This document shows positions 50,414 to 58,152 of a stretch of DNA of 64,000 bases, one piece after another. A program made the position numbers and the translations under genes. This DNA is from Solimonas sp. SE-A11 (GTDB taxonomy: Bacteria > Pseudomonadota > Gammaproteobacteria > Nevskiales > Nevskiaceae), in NCBI RefSeq assembly GCF_030345715.1, contig NZ_JAUASX010000003.1, positions 215,276-279,275 on the forward strand, in the 5' to 3' direction. Every line of letters starts with the position of its first letter. Position 1 is the stretch's first letter. Under the pieces are notes generated by a model that made no database searches, was not told the origin of the DNA, and was given only the letters and a program-made list of their open reading frames with translations.

Positions 50414-51199
50414 TCAGGCCGCGAAGAAAGGCTGCAACTGCTCCAGCGTGCCGTTCTTCTCAGCTGCCTGGCGCGCGGTGGCGCGATGCTTCGGGTCCAC
50501 GGCATCGCTGAGTTTCGCCATGCGCTGCTGATCCTTCGGCGGCATCTGTGCGGTGACCAGGCCCACTTCGTTGATGAACTCGGGCGCCTTGAAGGCGGCT
50601 TCGATCAGGCTGCGGATCTGCTGATCATCCATCTTCGCCGTGAGGCGCGCGACGCGGTCCTTGCGCTGCGCGAAGCTGGAGATGCGCAGGGAGTCGGCGG
50701 GGTCGGCGATCTCCTCCATCAGGATCATCGCCTTGTCTTCCGGCAGGTAATCGGTGAAGCCGCCCATGATGTGGTAGTCGCGGCTGGCCAGCATCTGGCG
50801 CGTGACGCCGCGCATCAGGTCCACCGGCAGTTTCTCCAGCTGCTCCCTGGCCCTTTCCGGGATCTGCTCGCGCGCGATCTCCGCCATGAACTCGTCGTCG
50901 AAGTGCTTGCACATGCGCGCCGCGCGGTCGGCCGGCACGTAGTACGACATGTTGGCGGTGATGCTGGGGCCGAAGACCTTGCGGCACAGCAGGGCGCTGA
51001 GCGCATCCGGTGCCAGCTTGCCGCTGGCGGCGATCTTCTCGAACAGCCCGGCGAATTCCTCCAGCAGGCTGTTCTGGATCAGCGTGCGCAGCTTCATCAG
51101 GCCGGCGCCGTCGAGCGCGGCGAGGTGGCCCAGCTGGGCCGCGTCGCGGTGCAGTACACGCGCCAGGCGGCGCAGCTCGGTGTCGCGGTCGATGTTCAT
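50414..51199 (-). CDS. Hypothetical helical-repeat protein
   Basis: This 261-residue protein has no signal peptide or membrane helix and is predicted mostly helical. Repeated blocks of LxxLxxDxM type, such as LEKLPVDLMRGVTRQMLA, TDYLPEDKAMILMEEIAD and RLTAKMDDQQIRSLIEA, suggest an alpha-helical repeat like the cytoplasmic domain of MgtE, but I do not recognise the family. Its start overlaps the stop of the 73-residue gene upstream (ATGA), so the two are a translationally coupled pair. No catalytic motif seen. Confidence 0.7.
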   Translation of the reverse strand: MNIDRDTELRRLARVLHRDAAQLGHLAALDGAGLMKLRTLIQNSLLEEFAGLFEKIAASGKLAPDALSALLCRKVFGPSITANMSYYVPADRAARMCKHFDDEFMAEIAREQIPERAREQLEKLPVDLMRGVTRQMLASRDYHIMGGFTDYLPEDKAMILMEEIADPADSLRISSFAQRKDRVARLTAKMDDQQIRSLIEAAFKAPEFINEVGLVTAQMPPKDQQRMAKLSDAVDPKHRATARQAAEKNGTLEQLQPFFAA

Positions 51200-51417
51200 A
51201 CGCCGAAGAGCTTCTTGATGGGCGCGCGCAGCAGCCAGGGCAGCTGGTTCAGCGCCTCTTCCATGCTGCCGCGGATGTGCTTCGAGTGGGCTTGCCGCGC
51301 CTGCTCGATGTCGCCAGCCAGCTTCAGCCGGTCAGCCTCGGACAGCGCGGACAGGAAGTCCAGCTTCGCCGGCTGCGTGCGCAGCAGTTTCGCCAGCTTG
51401 TCGTTGGGGTTGGCCAT
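51196..51417 (-). CDS. Small hypothetical protein (73 residues)
   Basis: This 73-residue protein starts MANPNDKLAKLLRTQPAKLD and ends RAPIKKLFGV. It is helical and basic, with no signal peptide. Its stop overlaps the start of the next gene (ATGA), and it lies 26 bases downstream of the AraC-family regulator gene, so it may be read from that transcript. No family is recognised. Codon use and the tight coupling to the next gene support it being real. Confidence 0.6.
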   Translation of the reverse strand: MANPNDKLAKLLRTQPAKLDFLSALSEADRLKLAGDIEQARQAHSKHIRGSMEEALNQLPWLLRAPIKKLFGV

Positions 51418-51443: not shown

Positions 51444-52508
51444 CTAGCCTGAGTTTCCGTCCAGCAGCCGGCGCCGGTAGCCGCTGGGTGAGTCGCCGGT
51501 CCACTTGCGGAAGGCGCGGGTGAAGTTGGCCGGGTTGGTGTAGCCCAGCCGTGCGGCGACCTGCTGCAGTTCCAGCGTGGAGTGGCGCAGCAGTTCCTGG
51601 GCGTCGCGCTGGCGCACGTCCTCCAGCAGGGCCAGGTAGGAGGTGCCTTCGGCCTGCAGCTTGCGCTTGAGGCTGCGTCCGGACATGTGCATGCGCTCTG
51701 CCACCGCGTCGACGCTGGGATAGCCACCGTTGTGGGACAGCCGAAGTTCGGCGCAGACGCGCAGGCCGACGCTGTCCTGCAGGCCGCCGGCCTGGGCCAG
51801 CTCGCGTTCGCAGAGCTCGATGGCCTGGCGCGAGGCATGCGGGTCGGCCAGCACCGGGCGCAGCTCCAGGTAGCGCAAAGGGAAGCGCAGCAGGTTGGCC
51901 GGCTGGCCGAAGCGGATGTTGGGCAGGCGTTCGCGGTAGGCCGCGTGGTAGGGCGGCTCGGGCCAGTCGAACCCGATTTCCGCGCCCTGGAAGTCGCGCA
52001 GCTCCATGCCCAGGATCGCGCAGGCGCCCCGCGCCAGGCCCAGCAGGATGTTCTCGACGAAGAACGAGCGCAGCACCGGGATCGGGTGCTTCTCGCGCAG
52101 TGTGATGGTGCCGTGCGTGGCGTCGGTGCTCAGGCTCATCGTGAAGTTGCGCTGGCGTGCCTGCACGTAGCGGATGGTGACGTCCATGGCCTGGCGCATG
52201 GAGTCGCAGCTCATGGTGGCGTAGCCGAGGAAGCCGTGCGAGGTCGGACGCATGCGCAGGCCGTATTCGTAGCCCAGACCCGGGTCGCCGGACAGGCGGA
52301 TGCCGTTCATGGCCAGCAGGGTCCACTGGTAGGCGGACATGCGCGCCTCCGGCTGCGCCAGCAGTTCCGGCGCCATCGGCACCCCCGCCAGCAACTGGTC
52401 CTGCTCCACGCCGCGCTCGGCCATGATCTCCACCAGCAGTTGCAGGTAGGAGACCGGGATCGACGGCTGGTTGATGTCGGGTGGCAGCTTCAGGCGGGAC
52501 AGGTCCAT
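51444..52508 (-). CDS. AraC-family transcriptional regulator with arabinose-binding-like domain (VirS/OruR type)
   Basis: This 354-residue regulator has an N-terminal Arabinose_bd (PF12625) domain, for example SYLQLLVEIMAERGVEQDQL, and TSHGFLGYATMSCDSMRQAM, and a C-terminal HTH_18 domain, with MHMSGRSLKRKLQAEGTSYL and LGYTNPANFTRAFRKWTGDSP. This is the VirS/OruR class. It is divergent from the SDR gene at 52605 and is the likely activator of that cluster, with an operator in the 96-base gap. The ligand is unknown. In M. tuberculosis VirS activates the divergent mymA operon, which also has an SDR, a hydrolase and a monooxygenase. Confidence 0.9.
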   Translation of the reverse strand: MDLSRLKLPPDINQPSIPVSYLQLLVEIMAERGVEQDQLLAGVPMAPELLAQPEARMSAYQWTLLAMNGIRLSGDPGLGYEYGLRMRPTSHGFLGYATMSCDSMRQAMDVTIRYVQARQRNFTMSLSTDATHGTITLREKHPIPVLRSFFVENILLGLARGACAILGMELRDFQGAEIGFDWPEPPYHAAYRERLPNIRFGQPANLLRFPLRYLELRPVLADPHASRQAIELCERELAQAGGLQDSVGLRVCAELRLSHNGGYPSVDAVAERMHMSGRSLKRKLQAEGTSYLALLEDVRQRDAQELLRHSTLELQQVAARLGYTNPANFTRAFRKWTGDSPSGYRRRLLDGNSG

Positions 52509-52604
52509 GGCGCAAAATGATAAGCAAATTGGCGCGGCCGCGTCTCACGCGGCGGGGCGCCGCGCGCCAAACTGTGCCATCGATCAATGACGAGGTTCGG
52601 AGCG

Positions 52605-53477
52605 ATGGCCAGGCAGGGTCTGCGGGGTAAGGTGGTGGCGGTGACCGGCGGTGCGCGCGGCATTGGCCTGGAGATCGCCAGGGCGCTGGCGGCCGAGGGC
52701 GCCCAGGTCAGCATCGGCGACATCGACGAGAAGCTGGCCCAGCATGCGGCACGGCCGTTGGGCGCCCATGCCGCGAAGCTGGACGTGCGCGACCGTGCGT
52801 CCTTTGCCGCCTTCCTCGACGCCACGCGCAAGGTACTGGGGCCGGTGGACGTGCTGGTCAACAACGCTGGCATCATGCCGATGGGCGCCTTCCTCGACGA
52901 GCCGCTGGAGCGTTCCGACGCGCAGATCGACATCAACTTCCGCGGCGTGATCCATGGCATGCAGCTGGCCCTGCCGGAGATGTTGAAGCGCGGCAGCGGC
53001 CACATTGTCAACATCGCCTCGCTGGCGGGCCGCTTCGGCATTCCCGGCGCGGTGGTCTATACCGGCACCAAGTTCGCGGTGGTGGGCCTGACCGAGGCGG
53101 CGGACGCCGAGTACCGCGGACGCGGCGTGCATTTCACCGCGGTGATGTCGTCCAAGGTGCGCACCGAACTGGCCTCCGGCACCGAGCAGGCCGGCAAGGG
53201 CATCCCGGCGGTGGACCCCGAGGACGTGGCGGCGGCGGTGGTGCAGGCGCTGAAGCGGCCGCAGCTGTTCGTGGCGGTGCCGGGCTTCCTGAAGCCGGCC
53301 GCCGCGGTGTTCCAGCTGGCACCGGAATGGCTGGTCCGCCTGGGGCGGCGGGCCATAGGCGACAACCGCATCCTGTCGAAACTCGACCATGACGGTCGCC
53401 GCGATTACGAGCGGCGCCTGGATGCGTTGGCCAAGCCTGCCGCGAAGCCAGCGCCCAAGCGCAAGGTGCGCGCGTGA
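52605..53477 (+). CDS. Short-chain dehydrogenase/reductase
   Basis: This protein of about 290 residues is a classical SDR with VAVTGGARGIGLEIA (NAD(P)-binding), VLVNNAGIMPMG, the catalytic Ser in NIASLAGR and Tyr-x3-Lys in VVYTGTKFAV. The basic tail (PAPKRKVRA) is unusual. The substrate is probably an alcohol or ketone intermediate of the cluster. The ATG at 52605 follows GAGG by nine bases; an ATG at 52587 gives six more residues but has no ribosome site. It overlaps the patatin gene by four bases (GTGA), and is the first gene of the operon divergent from the AraC regulator. Confidence 0.9.
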   Translation: MARQGLRGKVVAVTGGARGIGLEIARALAAEGAQVSIGDIDEKLAQHAARPLGAHAAKLDVRDRASFAAFLDATRKVLGPVDVLVNNAGIMPMGAFLDEPLERSDAQIDINFRGVIHGMQLALPEMLKRGSGHIVNIASLAGRFGIPGAVVYTGTKFAVVGLTEAADAEYRGRGVHFTAVMSSKVRTELASGTEQAGKGIPAVDPEDVAAAVVQALKRPQLFVAVPGFLKPAAAVFQLAPEWLVRLGRRAIGDNRILSKLDHDGRRDYERRLDALAKPAAKPAPKRKVRA

Positions 53478-54400
53478 CCCGCCGCGCCCTGGTCATCGGC
53501 TGTGGCGGCGTGGCCGGCGGTGCCTGGAGCATCGCCACGCTGGCGGCGCTGCAGCGCGAACTGGACTGGGACCCGCGCGAGGCGGAGATCCTGATCGGCA
53601 CCTCCAGCGGCGCGGTGCTGTCGGCCCTGCTAGGAGCCGGCGTCTCCGTAGAGCGCATGGTGGCCAGCCAGCTCGGCGAGGCGCCGGATTGCGTCTGGAA
53701 CCATGACCGCGACACCGGCGGCGTGCTGCCGCCGCTGCCGGCGGCGGACTGGCCGGGCCTGCCGCTGGCACGCCTGGGCCTGCGGCGGCGCATCTCCGCC
53801 TTCACCGCCTTCACCGGCCTGCTGCCGCGCGGCACCGCCGACATGGCGCCGTTCCGGCGGCTGGTCGGCAGCGTGGTGCCGCCGGGGGAGTGGGCGCCGC
53901 ATGCCAATACCTGGATCGTCGGCGTGGACGTGGACAGCGGCGAGCGCGTGGCCTTCGGCCGCGAGGACGCGCCGCGGATTCCGCTGGACCTCGCGGTCTG
54001 CGCGTCCTACGGCGTGCCGGGCTGGTGCCCGCCGATGGAATGGCAGGGCCGCTCGTATCTCGACGGCGGCATTGCCTCGCCGACCTCGGCGGACCTGCTG
54101 CTGGGCAGAGGCGTCACCGAGGCCGTGGTGCTGGCGCCGATGGCCTCCAGCGAGCCCGACCAGCCGCGCTCGCCACTGGCGCGGATCGAGCGCCGTGTGC
54201 GCCGGCACATGACCGCGATCGTGGACCGCGAGATCGCGCAACTGCAGGCCGCCGGCATCCGCACGATCCGGCTCGAGCCGGGCCCGGCCGAGTTGGCCGC
54301 GATCGGTTACAACATGATGGATCACCGCCGTCGCCGCCGCGTCTTCGACGTGACGGTGGCGGGCAGCGACCGCGCGGTACGCGCGGCGCTCCAGCGATAA
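53474..54400 (+). CDS. Patatin-like phospholipase
   Basis: This 308-residue protein has the patatin fold with the nucleophile in GTSSG (Ser44), an oxyanion-type glycine run GCGGVAGGA at the N terminus and the catalytic Asp in DGGI (Asp197). It is a predicted serine-aspartate dyad hydrolase acting on acyl esters. No signal peptide is visible, so it is cytoplasmic or membrane-associated. The GTG start overlaps the SDR stop. It could release or transfer fatty acyl groups for the monooxygenase and dehydrogenase. Confidence 0.9.
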   Translation: MTRRALVIGCGGVAGGAWSIATLAALQRELDWDPREAEILIGTSSGAVLSALLGAGVSVERMVASQLGEAPDCVWNHDRDTGGVLPPLPAADWPGLPLARLGLRRRISAFTAFTGLLPRGTADMAPFRRLVGSVVPPGEWAPHANTWIVGVDVDSGERVAFGREDAPRIPLDLAVCASYGVPGWCPPMEWQGRSYLDGGIASPTSADLLLGRGVTEAVVLAPMASSEPDQPRSPLARIERRVRRHMTAIVDREIAQLQAAGIRTIRLEPGPAELAAIGYNMMDHRRRRRVFDVTVAGSDRAVRAALQR

Positions 54401-54417
54401 CCTTTGGGAGGGCAGCA

Positions 54418-55923
54418 ATGGGCAGGGCAGAACGCATGGAACGCCAGCCGGACTACGAGGCCATCGTCATCGGCACGGGTTTCGGGGGCATGGGCGCGGC
54501 GATCGAACTGAAGCGGCAGGGCATCGATTCGCTGCTGCTGCTGGATCGCAACGACGATCTTGGCGGCACCTGGCACGTCAACAGCTATCCGGGCCTGGCG
54601 GTGGACATCGCCTCCTTCACCTACTCGTACTCCTTCGAGCCGAATCCCGGCTGGACGCGGCTCTACGCGCCGGGCGCGGAGCTGAAGAAGTACGCCGAGC
54701 ACGTCGCCGGCAAGTACGACCTGCGCCGCCACATGCGCTTCAATACCGTGGTGCTGAAGGCCGTGTGGGACGAGGCGAATCGCTTGTGGACCGTGCATCT
54801 CGCGCGCGGCGAGCCGTTGACGGCGCGCTTGCTGCTGACCGCCACCGGCTTCCTGTCGCAGCCGAAGAAGCCCGGCATCCCGGGCATCGAGACATTCAAG
54901 GGCAAGGTCATGCACACCGCCGCCTGGGACCATGACTACGAGCTGCAGGGCAAGCGCGCCGCGGTGATCGGTACCGGCGCCACCGCGGTGCAGTTGCTGC
55001 CGAAGATCGCGCCCAAGCTAGCGCGGCTCGACGTCTACCAGCGCACCGCGATCTGGGTGACGCCCAAGCTCGACGGGCCGATCCCGCTGGCGCTGCGCCG
55101 CCTGTTCGCCGCGCTGCCGTCCACGCAGCGCTCGGCGCGCCTGGTCAGCTCGGGCCTGCTCGAAGCGATCATGGTCACCGGCGTGCTGTACAACAAGCAA
55201 CTGCCGCTGCTGATGCGCACGATGGAGCGGGCCTGCAAGACGCACATCGCGCGCCAGGTGAATGACCCGGCGCTGCGCGAGAAGCTCACGCCGGACTACA
55301 GCTTCGGCTGCAAGCGGCCGACCTTCTCCAATACCTACTACCCGACCTTCAACCGCGCCAACGTGGAGCTGGTGACGGACGCCATCGAGCGCATCGAGCC
55401 CGACGCCATCGTCACACGCGATGGGCAGCGCCGGCCGATCGACACCCTGATCCTGGCCACCGGCTTCTCGCTGTGGGAGGAGAACTTCCCGGCGATCCAG
55501 ATCGTCGGACGGGCGGGCAAGGACCTGGGTGCCTGGTGGCGCGGCACGCGCTTCCAGTCCTACGAGGGCATCGCGATCCCGGGCTTCCCGAACCTGTTCA
55601 GCCTGAACAGCCCCTACGCCTACAACGGCCTGTCCTTCTTCACCACCATCGAAGGGCAGATGAAGCACATCGCCCGCCTGCTGGGCGAGATGCGGCGCAA
55701 GAAGGCGCGCAGCTTCGAGGTGTCGGAGAAGGCCAACGATGCCTTCGTGGCCGACATGAAGCGGCGCCTGGAGCATTCGGTTTTCGTCAACGGCAACTGC
55801 GCCAGCTCGCGCAGCTACTACTTCAACCCGCATGGCGAGGCGACCCTGCTGCGGCCCACGTCGACGGTCTCGGGCCTGCGGCGCTCCGGACGTTTTCCCC
55901 TCAAGGACTACCAGTTCGCCTGA
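54418..55923 (+). CDS. Flavin-containing monooxygenase, Baeyer-Villiger type
   Basis: This 501-residue protein has an N-terminal FAD-binding GxGxxG (IGTGFGGMG), the second dinucleotide motif AAVIGTGATAVQLLPKIA and the Baeyer-Villiger fingerprint FKGKVMHTAAWDHD (about residues 160-173), close to the consensus FxGxxxHxxxW[P/D]. It is like EthA, MymA and AlmA proteins that oxygenate ketones or long alkyl substrates. The start follows GGGAGG. It is 17 bases from the patatin gene and is part of the operon divergent from the AraC regulator. The substrate is unknown; a lipid-derived ketone is a guess. Confidence 0.9.
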   Translation: MGRAERMERQPDYEAIVIGTGFGGMGAAIELKRQGIDSLLLLDRNDDLGGTWHVNSYPGLAVDIASFTYSYSFEPNPGWTRLYAPGAELKKYAEHVAGKYDLRRHMRFNTVVLKAVWDEANRLWTVHLARGEPLTARLLLTATGFLSQPKKPGIPGIETFKGKVMHTAAWDHDYELQGKRAAVIGTGATAVQLLPKIAPKLARLDVYQRTAIWVTPKLDGPIPLALRRLFAALPSTQRSARLVSSGLLEAIMVTGVLYNKQLPLLMRTMERACKTHIARQVNDPALREKLTPDYSFGCKRPTFSNTYYPTFNRANVELVTDAIERIEPDAIVTRDGQRRPIDTLILATGFSLWEENFPAIQIVGRAGKDLGAWWRGTRFQSYEGIAIPGFPNLFSLNSPYAYNGLSFFTTIEGQMKHIARLLGEMRRKKARSFEVSEKANDAFVADMKRRLEHSVFVNGNCASSRSYYFNPHGEATLLRPTSTVSGLRRSGRFPLKDYQFA

Positions 55924-55961
55924 AGGCGGCGCAGAATCCGGCGAGTTACAGGAGAAGGGCC

Positions 55962-56801
55962 ATGGGCAAGATGGAGCAGGGCGGTGCCGCGACGATCCCG
56001 GTGCGGCGCATGGACTTCGAGTTCGGCGACGACATTCCCACCTGGTGGTTCGATGGTGACCCGGTCAAGACGCTGATCATGGCGGCGCAGTCTTGCACCT
56101 TTCCGGAGGGCGAGCGCTTCTTCATCCGCTCCGTGCGCGCCTGGCAGGACGGCGTGAAGGACCCGGTGCTGCGCCAGCAAATCCGCGGCTTCATCGGCCA
56201 GGAGGCGCACCACGGCAACGAGCACACGGCGCTCAATGCCTTCATGCAGGGCCGCGGACTGCCTACCGGCAAGGTCGAGGCCTTCGTCAAGCGGGGGCTG
56301 GGTTTTCGCGATCGCATGCTGTCGCCGGAGCGGCGCCTGGCCATGACTTGCGCGCTGGAGCATTTCACCGCGATGCTAGCCGAGATGCTGCTGGAACATC
56401 CGGAGTTCCTGAAGGGCATGGACGAGCGCGTGTTCGCGCTGTGGCTGTGGCATGCGGTGGAGGAGAGCGAGCACAAGGCCGTGGCCTTCGACGTCTTCAA
56501 GGACCAGGTGGACAGCGAGTGGATCCGCCGCAGCCAGATGGTGGTCACCACGCTGGAGTTCTCGCTGTTCAGCGCGCTGCACTTCGCGCGGCTCTACCGT
56601 GCTTCCGGCGAGAAGCTGGGACTGCGCGGCGTGATGAAGCGCCTGGCTTACTTCCGCCCCTGGCTGCGCCAGCTCGGCCCGCGCTACCGTGCCTACTACC
56701 GCCGTGACTTCCACCCCGACGAGGTGGACAGCCGCGCCCTGCGCGAGGCGGCGCTGAAGCGCCTCGCACAATTGCTGGACCGGCCGACCTTGGCCGCCTG
56801 A
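55962..56801 (+). CDS. Predicted metal-dependent hydrolase (COG3687/PF10118 family)
   Basis: This 279-residue protein matches the PF10118 family: IPTWWFDGDPVKT, FPEGERFFIRSVR, IGQEAHHGNEH, CALEHFTAML and WHAVEESEHKAVAFDVF. The repeated E-x2-H pattern across helices looks like a ferritin-type di-metal site. The biochemical activity of this family is not established as far as I know. The ATG at 55962 follows CAGGAGAAGG. Its consistent neighbourhood with a BVMO-like monooxygenase suggests a role in oxidative lipid or steroid metabolism; this is inference. Confidence 0.85.
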   Translation: MGKMEQGGAATIPVRRMDFEFGDDIPTWWFDGDPVKTLIMAAQSCTFPEGERFFIRSVRAWQDGVKDPVLRQQIRGFIGQEAHHGNEHTALNAFMQGRGLPTGKVEAFVKRGLGFRDRMLSPERRLAMTCALEHFTAMLAEMLLEHPEFLKGMDERVFALWLWHAVEESEHKAVAFDVFKDQVDSEWIRRSQMVVTTLEFSLFSALHFARLYRASGEKLGLRGVMKRLAYFRPWLRQLGPRYRAYYRRDFHPDEVDSRALREAALKRLAQLLDRPTLAA

Positions 56802-56825
56802 TAACCAGACCTGAAGAACCAAACC

Positions 56826-57662
56826 ATGGCCCGCAGCTCCGAGGCGATCAGCCCGACCGCTCATTACACCGGCTACGCCTGGTTCCACCACGGCCTCTCG
56901 CACGAAGCCCTGGTCACGCCGCAGGGGCGGCTGCTGTTCAACGCCCTGCGCCCGCTGAACCGCCTGGCGCAGGCCTGGGAGCGACCCACGGTGGAAGGCT
57001 TCCTGCTGGCCCGCCATCGCGCCATCGACGGCCTGCTGGAGCAGGCCATCGTGGAGGGGCGGGTGACACAGGTGATCGAGATCGCCTCCGGCTTTTCGCC
57101 GCGCGGCTGGGACTTCAAGCGCCGCCACGGCAACCGCCTGCGCTACATCGAGGCGGACTTGCCGCAGATGGCGGAGTGGAAGCTGCAGCGGCTGGAGCGC
57201 GGCGGCCTGCTGCAGCCGGGGCACCGGGTGCAGCCGCTGGACGCGCTGGCGGACCACGGCCCCGCGTCGCTGGCGGCTCTGGCCGAGCGGTTGGACCCGG
57301 CGCAGGGGACAGCGATCGTCACCGAGGGCCTGCTGAACTACTTCGACCGTGAGTCGGTGCTGGGCATGTGGCAGCGCTTTGCCGCCGTGCTGTCGCGCTT
57401 TCCCCAGGGCCTGTACCTGTCCGATCTGCACCTGGCCCGGGACAACCAGGGTACTTCGCAGCGCGTCTTCGGCCGCCTGCTCTCGGCCTTCGTGCGGGGG
57501 CGTGTCCACCTGCATTTCAACGGCCCCGAGGAGCCCCTGGATCTGCTGCGGGCCAGTGGCTTCGCCACCGCCGAGCTGCACGATCCGCGGCAGCTGCCGC
57601 AGGCCGGGCGGACGCAGCCCGGCGCCGAGCTGGTGCGCGTGATCGAGGCGCGCAGCCGATGA
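56826..57662 (+). CDS. SAM-dependent O-methyltransferase, LCM/COG3315 family
   Basis: This 278-residue protein resembles the leucine carboxyl methyltransferase family (PF04072, COG3315). It starts with ISPTAHYTGYAW, then ARHRAIDGLLEQAI, VIEIASGFSPRGWDF for the SAM-binding glycine loop, IEADLPQM for the acidic ribose-binding residue and TEGLLNYFD. These enzymes methylate carboxylates or hydroxyls of small molecules. It follows the PF10118 gene by 24 bases and is likely the fifth gene of the operon. The substrate is unknown. Confidence 0.87.
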   Translation: MARSSEAISPTAHYTGYAWFHHGLSHEALVTPQGRLLFNALRPLNRLAQAWERPTVEGFLLARHRAIDGLLEQAIVEGRVTQVIEIASGFSPRGWDFKRRHGNRLRYIEADLPQMAEWKLQRLERGGLLQPGHRVQPLDALADHGPASLAALAERLDPAQGTAIVTEGLLNYFDRESVLGMWQRFAAVLSRFPQGLYLSDLHLARDNQGTSQRVFGRLLSAFVRGRVHLHFNGPEEPLDLLRASGFATAELHDPRQLPQAGRTQPGAELVRVIEARSR

Positions 57663-57732
57663 GCGACCGTCACGCCGTCAGGTCATAATCGACTTCTTCG
57701 CATTTCCCTAGCATTTCCAATAGGAGCATCCC

Positions 57733-58152
57733 ATGGCGCAGCACCAGGTCCACGTGAGCCGCGATTTCACGCTTCCGGTCGAGGACGTGTACGCGCTCCT
57801 GTCCGATCACAACCGCCTGAGCCGCGTGCTCGGCGTGCCGGTCAAGCGAATCCGCGATGCGGTGGGCGACGACGTCAATGGCGTTGGCTCGGTGCGCCTG
57901 ATCGGCGTGGCTCCGCTAGGCATCGAGGAGACCGTGACCGCGGCCGAGCCGAACCGCCTGATCCGCTACCGCATCAGCAAGGGTGGCGCGCCGGTGAAGA
58001 ACCACAGCGGCGAGTTGACCTTCAGCAAGACCGCCGAAGGCTCGCGCGTGCAGTGGGTGATCGACTTCGATTCGTCGCTGCCGGTGGCCGGAACGGTGGT
58101 GCGTCTGGTGCTGGGCGCGGCCATCAACCGCGGGCTGCGCCGCATTTCCTGA
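57733..58152 (+). CDS. SRPBCC-family (polyketide cyclase/dehydrase-like) lipid-binding protein
   Basis: This 139-residue protein is a START-like SRPBCC domain: VHVSRDFTLPVEDVYALLSD, then GVGSVRLIGVA, IEETVTAAEPNRLIRYR and SRVQWVIDFDSSLP. These form a hydrophobic ligand-binding cavity. No signal or membrane helix. It is 70 bases after the methyltransferase and could be the last gene of that operon. Function is not known; ligand binding or acting as a cyclase are the usual possibilities. Confidence 0.82.
   Translation: MAQHQVHVSRDFTLPVEDVYALLSDHNRLSRVLGVPVKRIRDAVGDDVNGVGSVRLIGVAPLGIEETVTAAEPNRLIRYRISKGGAPVKNHSGELTFSKTAEGSRVQWVIDFDSSLPVAGTVVRLVLGAAINRGLRRIS

Follow-up and report, generated by a model that had tools for sequence, protein, structure and literature searches.

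In Mycobacterium tuberculosis, the virS-mymA operon comprises seven genes, of which adhD is the fourth (PMC13234193). For long-chain alkanes in Thalassolituus oleivorans, a route through alcohol dehydrogenase, Baeyer-Villiger monooxygenase (BVMO) and esterase has been proposed, and its first monooxygenase was not identified there (PMC6304351). Activators of alkane genes from the AraC/XylS group have been described (PMC8784404), among them APR1, which acts on almA (PMC11784139). The latter paper also cites a report that A. baylyi AlmA oxidises C10-C16 2-ketones. Here we describe a comparable arrangement in a 64,000-nucleotide stretch of Solimonas sp. SE-A11 (hereafter the window; contig NZ_JAUASX010000003.1, positions 215,276 to 279,275). 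In this locus, an AraC-family regulator gene is divergent from genes for a short-chain dehydrogenase/reductase (SDR), a patatin-like esterase, a BVMO, a PF10118 protein, an LCM-like methyltransferase and an SRPBCC protein (Table 1).

We lean towards the view that this is a regulator-controlled operon whose products cleave a hydrophobic chain oxidatively, using Baeyer-Villiger chemistry. In the scheme that we infer, the AraC regulator would bind an aliphatic or lipid effector and act at a candidate site in the gap between araC and the SDR gene, thereby turning on the six plus-strand genes. The PF10118 protein, as a diiron enzyme, would most likely either hydroxylate this chain in a first oxygenation or oxidise it in a side reaction. 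From a secondary alcohol, the SDR would make a ketone, into which the BVMO would insert oxygen to give an ester; the patatin would then split the ester into an acid and an alcohol. The methyltransferase would probably cap a product at a carboxylate or hydroxyl group, and SRPBCC would bind or carry a hydrophobic intermediate or product. We consider the order of SDR, BVMO and patatin reactions probable. As to the substrate class, a long aliphatic or lipid chain is an evenly balanced call.

A recurrent core of SDR, patatin and BVMO

All seven genes (51444-58152) are intact open reading frames (ORFs) at the place given in an earlier, sequence-only reading of this DNA, and they match PF12625 with HTH_18, adh_short, Patatin, FMO/Pyr_redox, PF10118, LCM and Polyketide_cyc2. 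The overlapping or close spacing that it described is also present, with plus-strand gaps from the SDR to the SRPBCC gene of -4, 17, 38, 24 and 70 bp (the SDR and patatin genes overlap by 4 bp). That reading had suggested looking for the same gene set in other genomes. Three other Solimonas genomes have it in the same order with the same flanks, at 83-99% identity for the six plus-strand genes and 85-87% for the regulator, and a core of the set recurs more widely. Because the order is kept in four Solimonas genomes, a chance array of genes is excluded.

The core enzymes retain the residues expected of their families. Patatin residues S44, G46 and D197 are invariant in 10 aligned sequences, and they supply the GxSxG serine and the DG dyad. 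The BVMO has the type I layout of two GxGxxG/A motifs (GTGFGG at 19, GTGATA at 185) and FxGxxxHxxxW (FKGKVMHTAAW at 160), together with the catalytic arginine R300 (KRP) and the near-flavin D63; at least 95% of 55 homologues retain the motif residues. It is therefore predicted to be a type I BVMO that converts a ketone to an ester.

The best PDB matches of this BVMO are cyclohexanone and steroid monooxygenases, and relatives have PF10118-BVMO-SDR runs with many SDRs (L046). Both observations would fit a pathway that degrades or detoxifies cyclic ketones (terpenoids or steroids), in which the SDR and BVMO yield a lactone that the patatin opens. However, cyclic-ketone enzymes are over-represented in the PDB, so such matches tell little about the substrate, and the operon contains no ring-catabolism genes. 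We therefore regard this alternative as unlikely.

For the cleavage of a hydrophobic chain, which we prefer, gene neighborhoods suggest the order of the reactions. The patatin gene adjoins a BVMO gene in all 10 loci examined and an SDR gene in 9 of the 10; these loci belong to two phyla and have AraC or TetR regulators. Since the patatin is beside the BVMO in every case, it more plausibly acts last, on the BVMO ester. This argues against the sequence-only proposal that an acyl chain is released first and then oxidised and methylated.

Patatins of this family are uncommon, occurring in 7 of 85 genomes of the order and in 2 of 369 genomes of the class, the window's own included. An AraC gene divergent from SDR-BVMO-patatin occurs in genomes G014 and G070, where the AraC protein is 51-62%, the SDR 57-59% and the patatin 63% identical to that of the window. 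G037, from a second family of the order, has SDR-BVMO-patatin, and G292, from yet another family of the class, has an AraC gene (39%) divergent from SDR (51%), patatin (50%) and BVMO, in the window's order. Beyond these genomes, TetR|SDR-patatin-BVMO, with overlapping genes, is present on a Tsukamurella plasmid (L087), and a patatin-BVMO pair on one from Streptomyces. A literature search found no paper combining patatin, BVMO, SDR and operon. Among esterases that work with BVMO cascades, a patatin would be unexpected.

The history of the BVMO probably differs from that of its neighbors. In the gammaproteobacterial AraC|SDR/patatin loci, the BVMOs are 36-38% identical to the window's, and the other proteins 39-65%. 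In a tree that did not include MymA, EtaA or AlmA, the window BVMO groups with actinobacterial plasmid BVMOs and those of PF10118 loci in relatives (a clade of 18, 100/100); the BVMOs encoded at the AraC|SDR/patatin loci fall outside this clade. We suggest that the cluster joins two older modules, namely the core of AraC gene, SDR, patatin and BVMO and a PF10118-linked BVMO subfamily. Given the low BVMO identity and the separate tree placement, the BVMO of the original operon was probably replaced in Solimonas by one of the PF10118-linked subfamily. The PF10118, LCM and SRPBCC genes probably arrived with the new BVMO or were added.

The closest BVMO outside Solimonas (57% identity) is on plasmids of Mycobacterium intracellulare and M. 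avium; in one of these (L068:10986-12470), its neighbors are a large nonribosomal peptide synthetase gene and toxin-antitoxin genes.

The PF10118 protein as a predicted diiron protein

The database name of PF10118 is "predicted metal-dependent hydrolase", and the sequence-only reading took the protein as a hydrolase. We aligned 80 homologues, 33 from genomes and plasmids and, in a second set, 47 more from viral-contig records. Residues E51, E81, H84, H88, E133, H134, H164, E167, E168, E170 and H171 are invariant in these. They include the ferritin-like ligand set E, ExxH, E, ExxH (E51, E81xxH84, E133, E168xxH171) as well as H164xxxE168xxH171, whose HxxxExxH spacing is the same as in AurF.

The structure model (predicted local distance difference test 93.8; predicted template modelling score 0.91) places every ligand group in a separate helix. 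Its best structural match in the PDB is CmlI, with Z 13.9 over 237 residues. The 50 structural matches listed are all diiron-type (ribonucleotide reductase R2, R2lox, AurF, CmlI and methane monooxygenase) at Z 11.8-13.9, in a range where helical bundles reach about Z 13 by shape alone. Foldseek gave E-values that were not significant, and its top rows were still mostly diiron enzymes. In 61 genomes, 9 of 11 matches to the AurF profile lie inside PF10118 ORFs, all of them sub-threshold (14.7-21.9 bits versus 29.6). The PF10118 profile had just weak, implausible matches (a Mediator subunit) among PDB sequences.

Because the ligand pattern, the predicted fold and the AurF-profile matches agree, the PF10118 protein is very likely to be a ferritin-like diiron protein. 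If it were truly a metal-dependent hydrolase, as its name says, the pathway would begin from a pre-existing hydroxy-lipid. Metal-type ligands would be conserved in either case, but the same three lines of evidence all indicate the ferritin-like diiron class, and we consider a hydrolase very unlikely.

In 18 genomes, there are 25 cases of a PF10118 gene with a BVMO-like gene no more than 8 kb away, compared with 1.9 expected (roughly 13-fold); 4 of the 25 are orthologous Solimonas copies. As a diiron protein, PF10118 could represent an AurF/CmlI-like oxygenase class that hydroxylates unactivated aliphatic positions and is the first enzyme of subterminal oxidation, co-regulated with BVMO and esterase. 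We propose this only tentatively and consider it doubtful, both for the family and for the window protein as first hydroxylase. In several bacteria, the first oxygenase of subterminal alkane or lipid oxidation is still to be named, and PF10118 would be a concrete candidate from a large, probably misnamed family that is repeatedly beside Baeyer-Villiger enzymes. Our literature search found PF10118 in passing mention only and COG3687 not at all, and no PF10118 was found in PHROGs.

Several observations weigh against the pathway as drawn. The window PF10118 protein has no match to the AurF Pfam family PF11583, and is not assigned to that family. When PF10118 was compared by hhalign to a single AurF-like protein, the match was a weak one, at a probability of 0.65%, even though most of the ligand motifs aligned. 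The cluster encodes no electron-transfer partner dedicated to the diiron enzyme. The other AraC|SDR/BVMO/patatin loci are missing PF10118, LCM and SRPBCC, which are thus dispensable for the core. Moreover, a purely catabolic route would not usually include a methyltransferase. The LCM enzyme and the SRPBCC protein are the weakest links of the proposed pathway. In genome G015 (L046), a 50% identical LCM homologue is the first gene of a run that includes SDRs, PF10118 and a BVMO. The Solimonas genome has two ORFs of about 490 amino acids with a rubredoxin domain, possible AlkB-rubredoxin fusions, which are compatible with growth on aliphatics without proving it.

PF10118 genes also occur in other settings. 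A second cluster in the same genome has the order PF10118-SDR-BVMO-PF10118-SDR (L048:616-6072, contig 28), and its BVMO is 51% identical to the window's. Plasmids of Mycolicibacterium chubuense NBB4 and M. aubagnense (L070:4863-14131 and L071:4883-14068) have TetR|PF10118, followed by genes for an SDR, another ferritin-like protein whose AurF match is sub-threshold, three BVMOs and an alpha/beta hydrolase; a P450 gene lies beyond them. PF10118 relatives are encoded on 73 contigs of the IMG/VR viral collection (L088-L160), some longer than 300 kb (L090, L091, L119); these are candidate phage genes or mis-sorted host DNA.

The regulator and a candidate operator

The regulator had been called VirS-like. 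This description is apt at the family level (VirS, PDB entry 8rcx, E-value 4.7e-12), but 5chh is closer (3.9e-18). Against the CypR alkane-regulator model NF053784, it scores 148.7 bits, under the equivalog cut-off of 500. Its orthologues in G014, G070 and G292 are each divergent from an SDR gene.

The 96-bp gap between araC and the SDR gene (52509-52604) contains a candidate operator, TGGCNNRAAATGAYAAGCNNNNTGKC. In the 85 genomes of the order, exact copies are found solely at this AraC|SDR locus type; as the pattern was derived from these loci, the restriction shows specificity, not function. The element TGGCGCAAAATGATAAGCAAATTGGC is at the same position in four Solimonas genomes and in G014, G070 and G292. 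Its TGKC half-sites are 22 bp apart, which is the usual spacing of AraC-type direct repeats. In the 4.94 Mb genome, the candidate operator has a single match at up to 2 mismatches. Since it is conserved and genome-unique in this gap, it supports the earlier suggestion of an inducible operon, whose divergent regulator would act via this site.

The neighborhoods of degenerate copies provide an independent test of the candidate operator. Elsewhere, 8 of 13 such copies are within 600 bp of other Arabinose_bd domains, compared with 0.08 expected. At an independent locus in G043 (L182:324-3025), an AraC gene, a 2-mismatch copy and PF10118-BVMO follow one another on one strand. In G006 (L175:416-2973), a 2-mismatch copy is between an AraC gene and a divergent AlkB-rubredoxin fusion, and in G037 a degenerate copy is by an AraC gene divergent from a polyhydroxybutyrate (PHB)-depolymerase-like esterase. 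The candidate operator could thus be a handle for listing the regulon of this AraC subfamily across whole genomes.

On the minus strand, the hexamer TATCAT (52522-52517) resembles a -10 element and lies 8 nt upstream of the araC start. Given this spacing and its place within the operator block, araC may be leaderless and autoregulated. Scans for sigma-70 promoters and for terminators gave nothing above chance.

Elsewhere in the genome, an Arabinose_bd regulator domain with an in-frame TAA, possibly a pseudogene (G000:C12:290817-291095), and a further BVMO gene (C12:287422-288849) are separated by about 2 kb.

The gene boundaries of the sequence-only reading require two changes, although the genes themselves are in place. 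The SDR probably starts at 52605, because an ATG is present there in 7 of 7 aligned loci. The locus also takes in two ORFs behind araC, which belong to the conserved Solimonas block, as does the convergent DUF1631 gene that is next after the SRPBCC gene. Among the loci compared, these ORFs occur only in Solimonas, and they are probably cotranscribed with the regulator. A structure model of the 261-aa ORF was of poor quality and was not used.

Table 1. Features of the locus, with positions in the window
Feature	Position	Strand	Evidence
araC: AraC-family regulator, Arabinose_bd (PF12625) and HTH_18	51444..52508	-	Pfam 1.9e-33 and 7.5e-21
SDR, PRK07825 subfamily	52605..53477 (alternative ORF start 52587)	+	NCBIfam NF005878, 346 bits versus cut-off 287; adh_short match
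Patatin-like esterase, GTSSG (Ser44) and Asp197-Gly dyad	53474..54400	+	PF01734 1e-16
Predicted type I BVMO, 501 aa; FxGxxxHxxxW 160-170, D63, R300	54418..55923	+	5m0z 1.1e-71; FMO/Pyr_redox match
PF10118 protein, predicted ferritin-like diiron protein	55962..56801	+	PF10118 2.1e-80, 270.4 bits versus curated cut-off 33.2
LCM/TIGR00027-like S-adenosylmethionine-dependent methyltransferase	56826..57662	+	PF04072 1e-14; TIGR00027 under cut-off
SRPBCC (Polyketide_cyc2) small-molecule/lipid-binding protein	57733..58152	+	PF10604 6.5e-21; kept in four Solimonas
Candidate operator TGGCGCAAAATGATAAGCAAATTGGC (52508-52533) and conserved CGTCTCACG (52541-52549)	52508..52549	+	Kept in seven loci, four genera
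73-aa ORF directly behind araC	51196..51417	-	90-97% conserved in three Solimonas; without Pfam match
261-aa ORF, 4-bp overlap with 73-aa ORF	50414..51199	-	88-98% conserved in three Solimonas; without Pfam match

Comparison with known systems

Like virS-mymA, the Solimonas locus has a VirS-type AraC regulator, with an Arabinose_bd-type domain (PF12625, 1.9e-33), divergent from an operon that encodes a BVMO, an SDR and an ester hydrolase. The likeness to virS-mymA drawn in the sequence-only reading is sound for the regulator type, BVMO and SDR, but it does not extend to the esterase, which is a patatin and has another fold than LipR. The genes adhD, acyltransferase and fadD13 of the virS-mymA operon are absent, PF10118, LCM and SRPBCC are additional, and the regulator is just distantly related to VirS.

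The shared regulator family and the logic of BVMO, SDR and esterase could also point to remodelling of lipids or of the envelope, as has been suggested for virS-mymA (for the operon, see PMC13234193). An endogenous acyl chain or hydroxylated lipid would then be modified and a product methylated by the LCM enzyme, without a growth substrate, which would suit the presence of the methyltransferase and the SRPBCC protein. However, the adhD, acyltransferase and fadD13 partners are not in the operon, and the related operator copies at AlkB-rubredoxin and PHB-depolymerase-like genes suggest catabolism of reduced aliphatics. Remodelling is thus rather unlikely in comparison with oxidative chain cleavage. 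We treat the resemblance to virS-mymA as an analogy: the locus resembles a mymA-type oxidative lipid operon, and we do not claim membership.

The subterminal alkane oxidation proposed for T. oleivorans has the alcohol dehydrogenase, BVMO and esterase steps in common with our scheme. There, the locus tags are scattered and form no single operon, whereas the Solimonas operon also encodes a diiron candidate. The AurF/CmlI diiron N-oxygenases (PF11583) share with PF10118 the predicted fold and the spacing E, ExxH, E, HxxxExxH. By contrast, PF10118 is a separate family, its AurF matches are under the curated cut-off, and it has no arylamine context. Finally, the Tsukamurella plasmid locus has a TetR regulator, no PF10118, LCM or SRPBCC, and a BVMO of another subfamily, but its three enzymes are those of the Solimonas core, in the same order and with overlapping genes.

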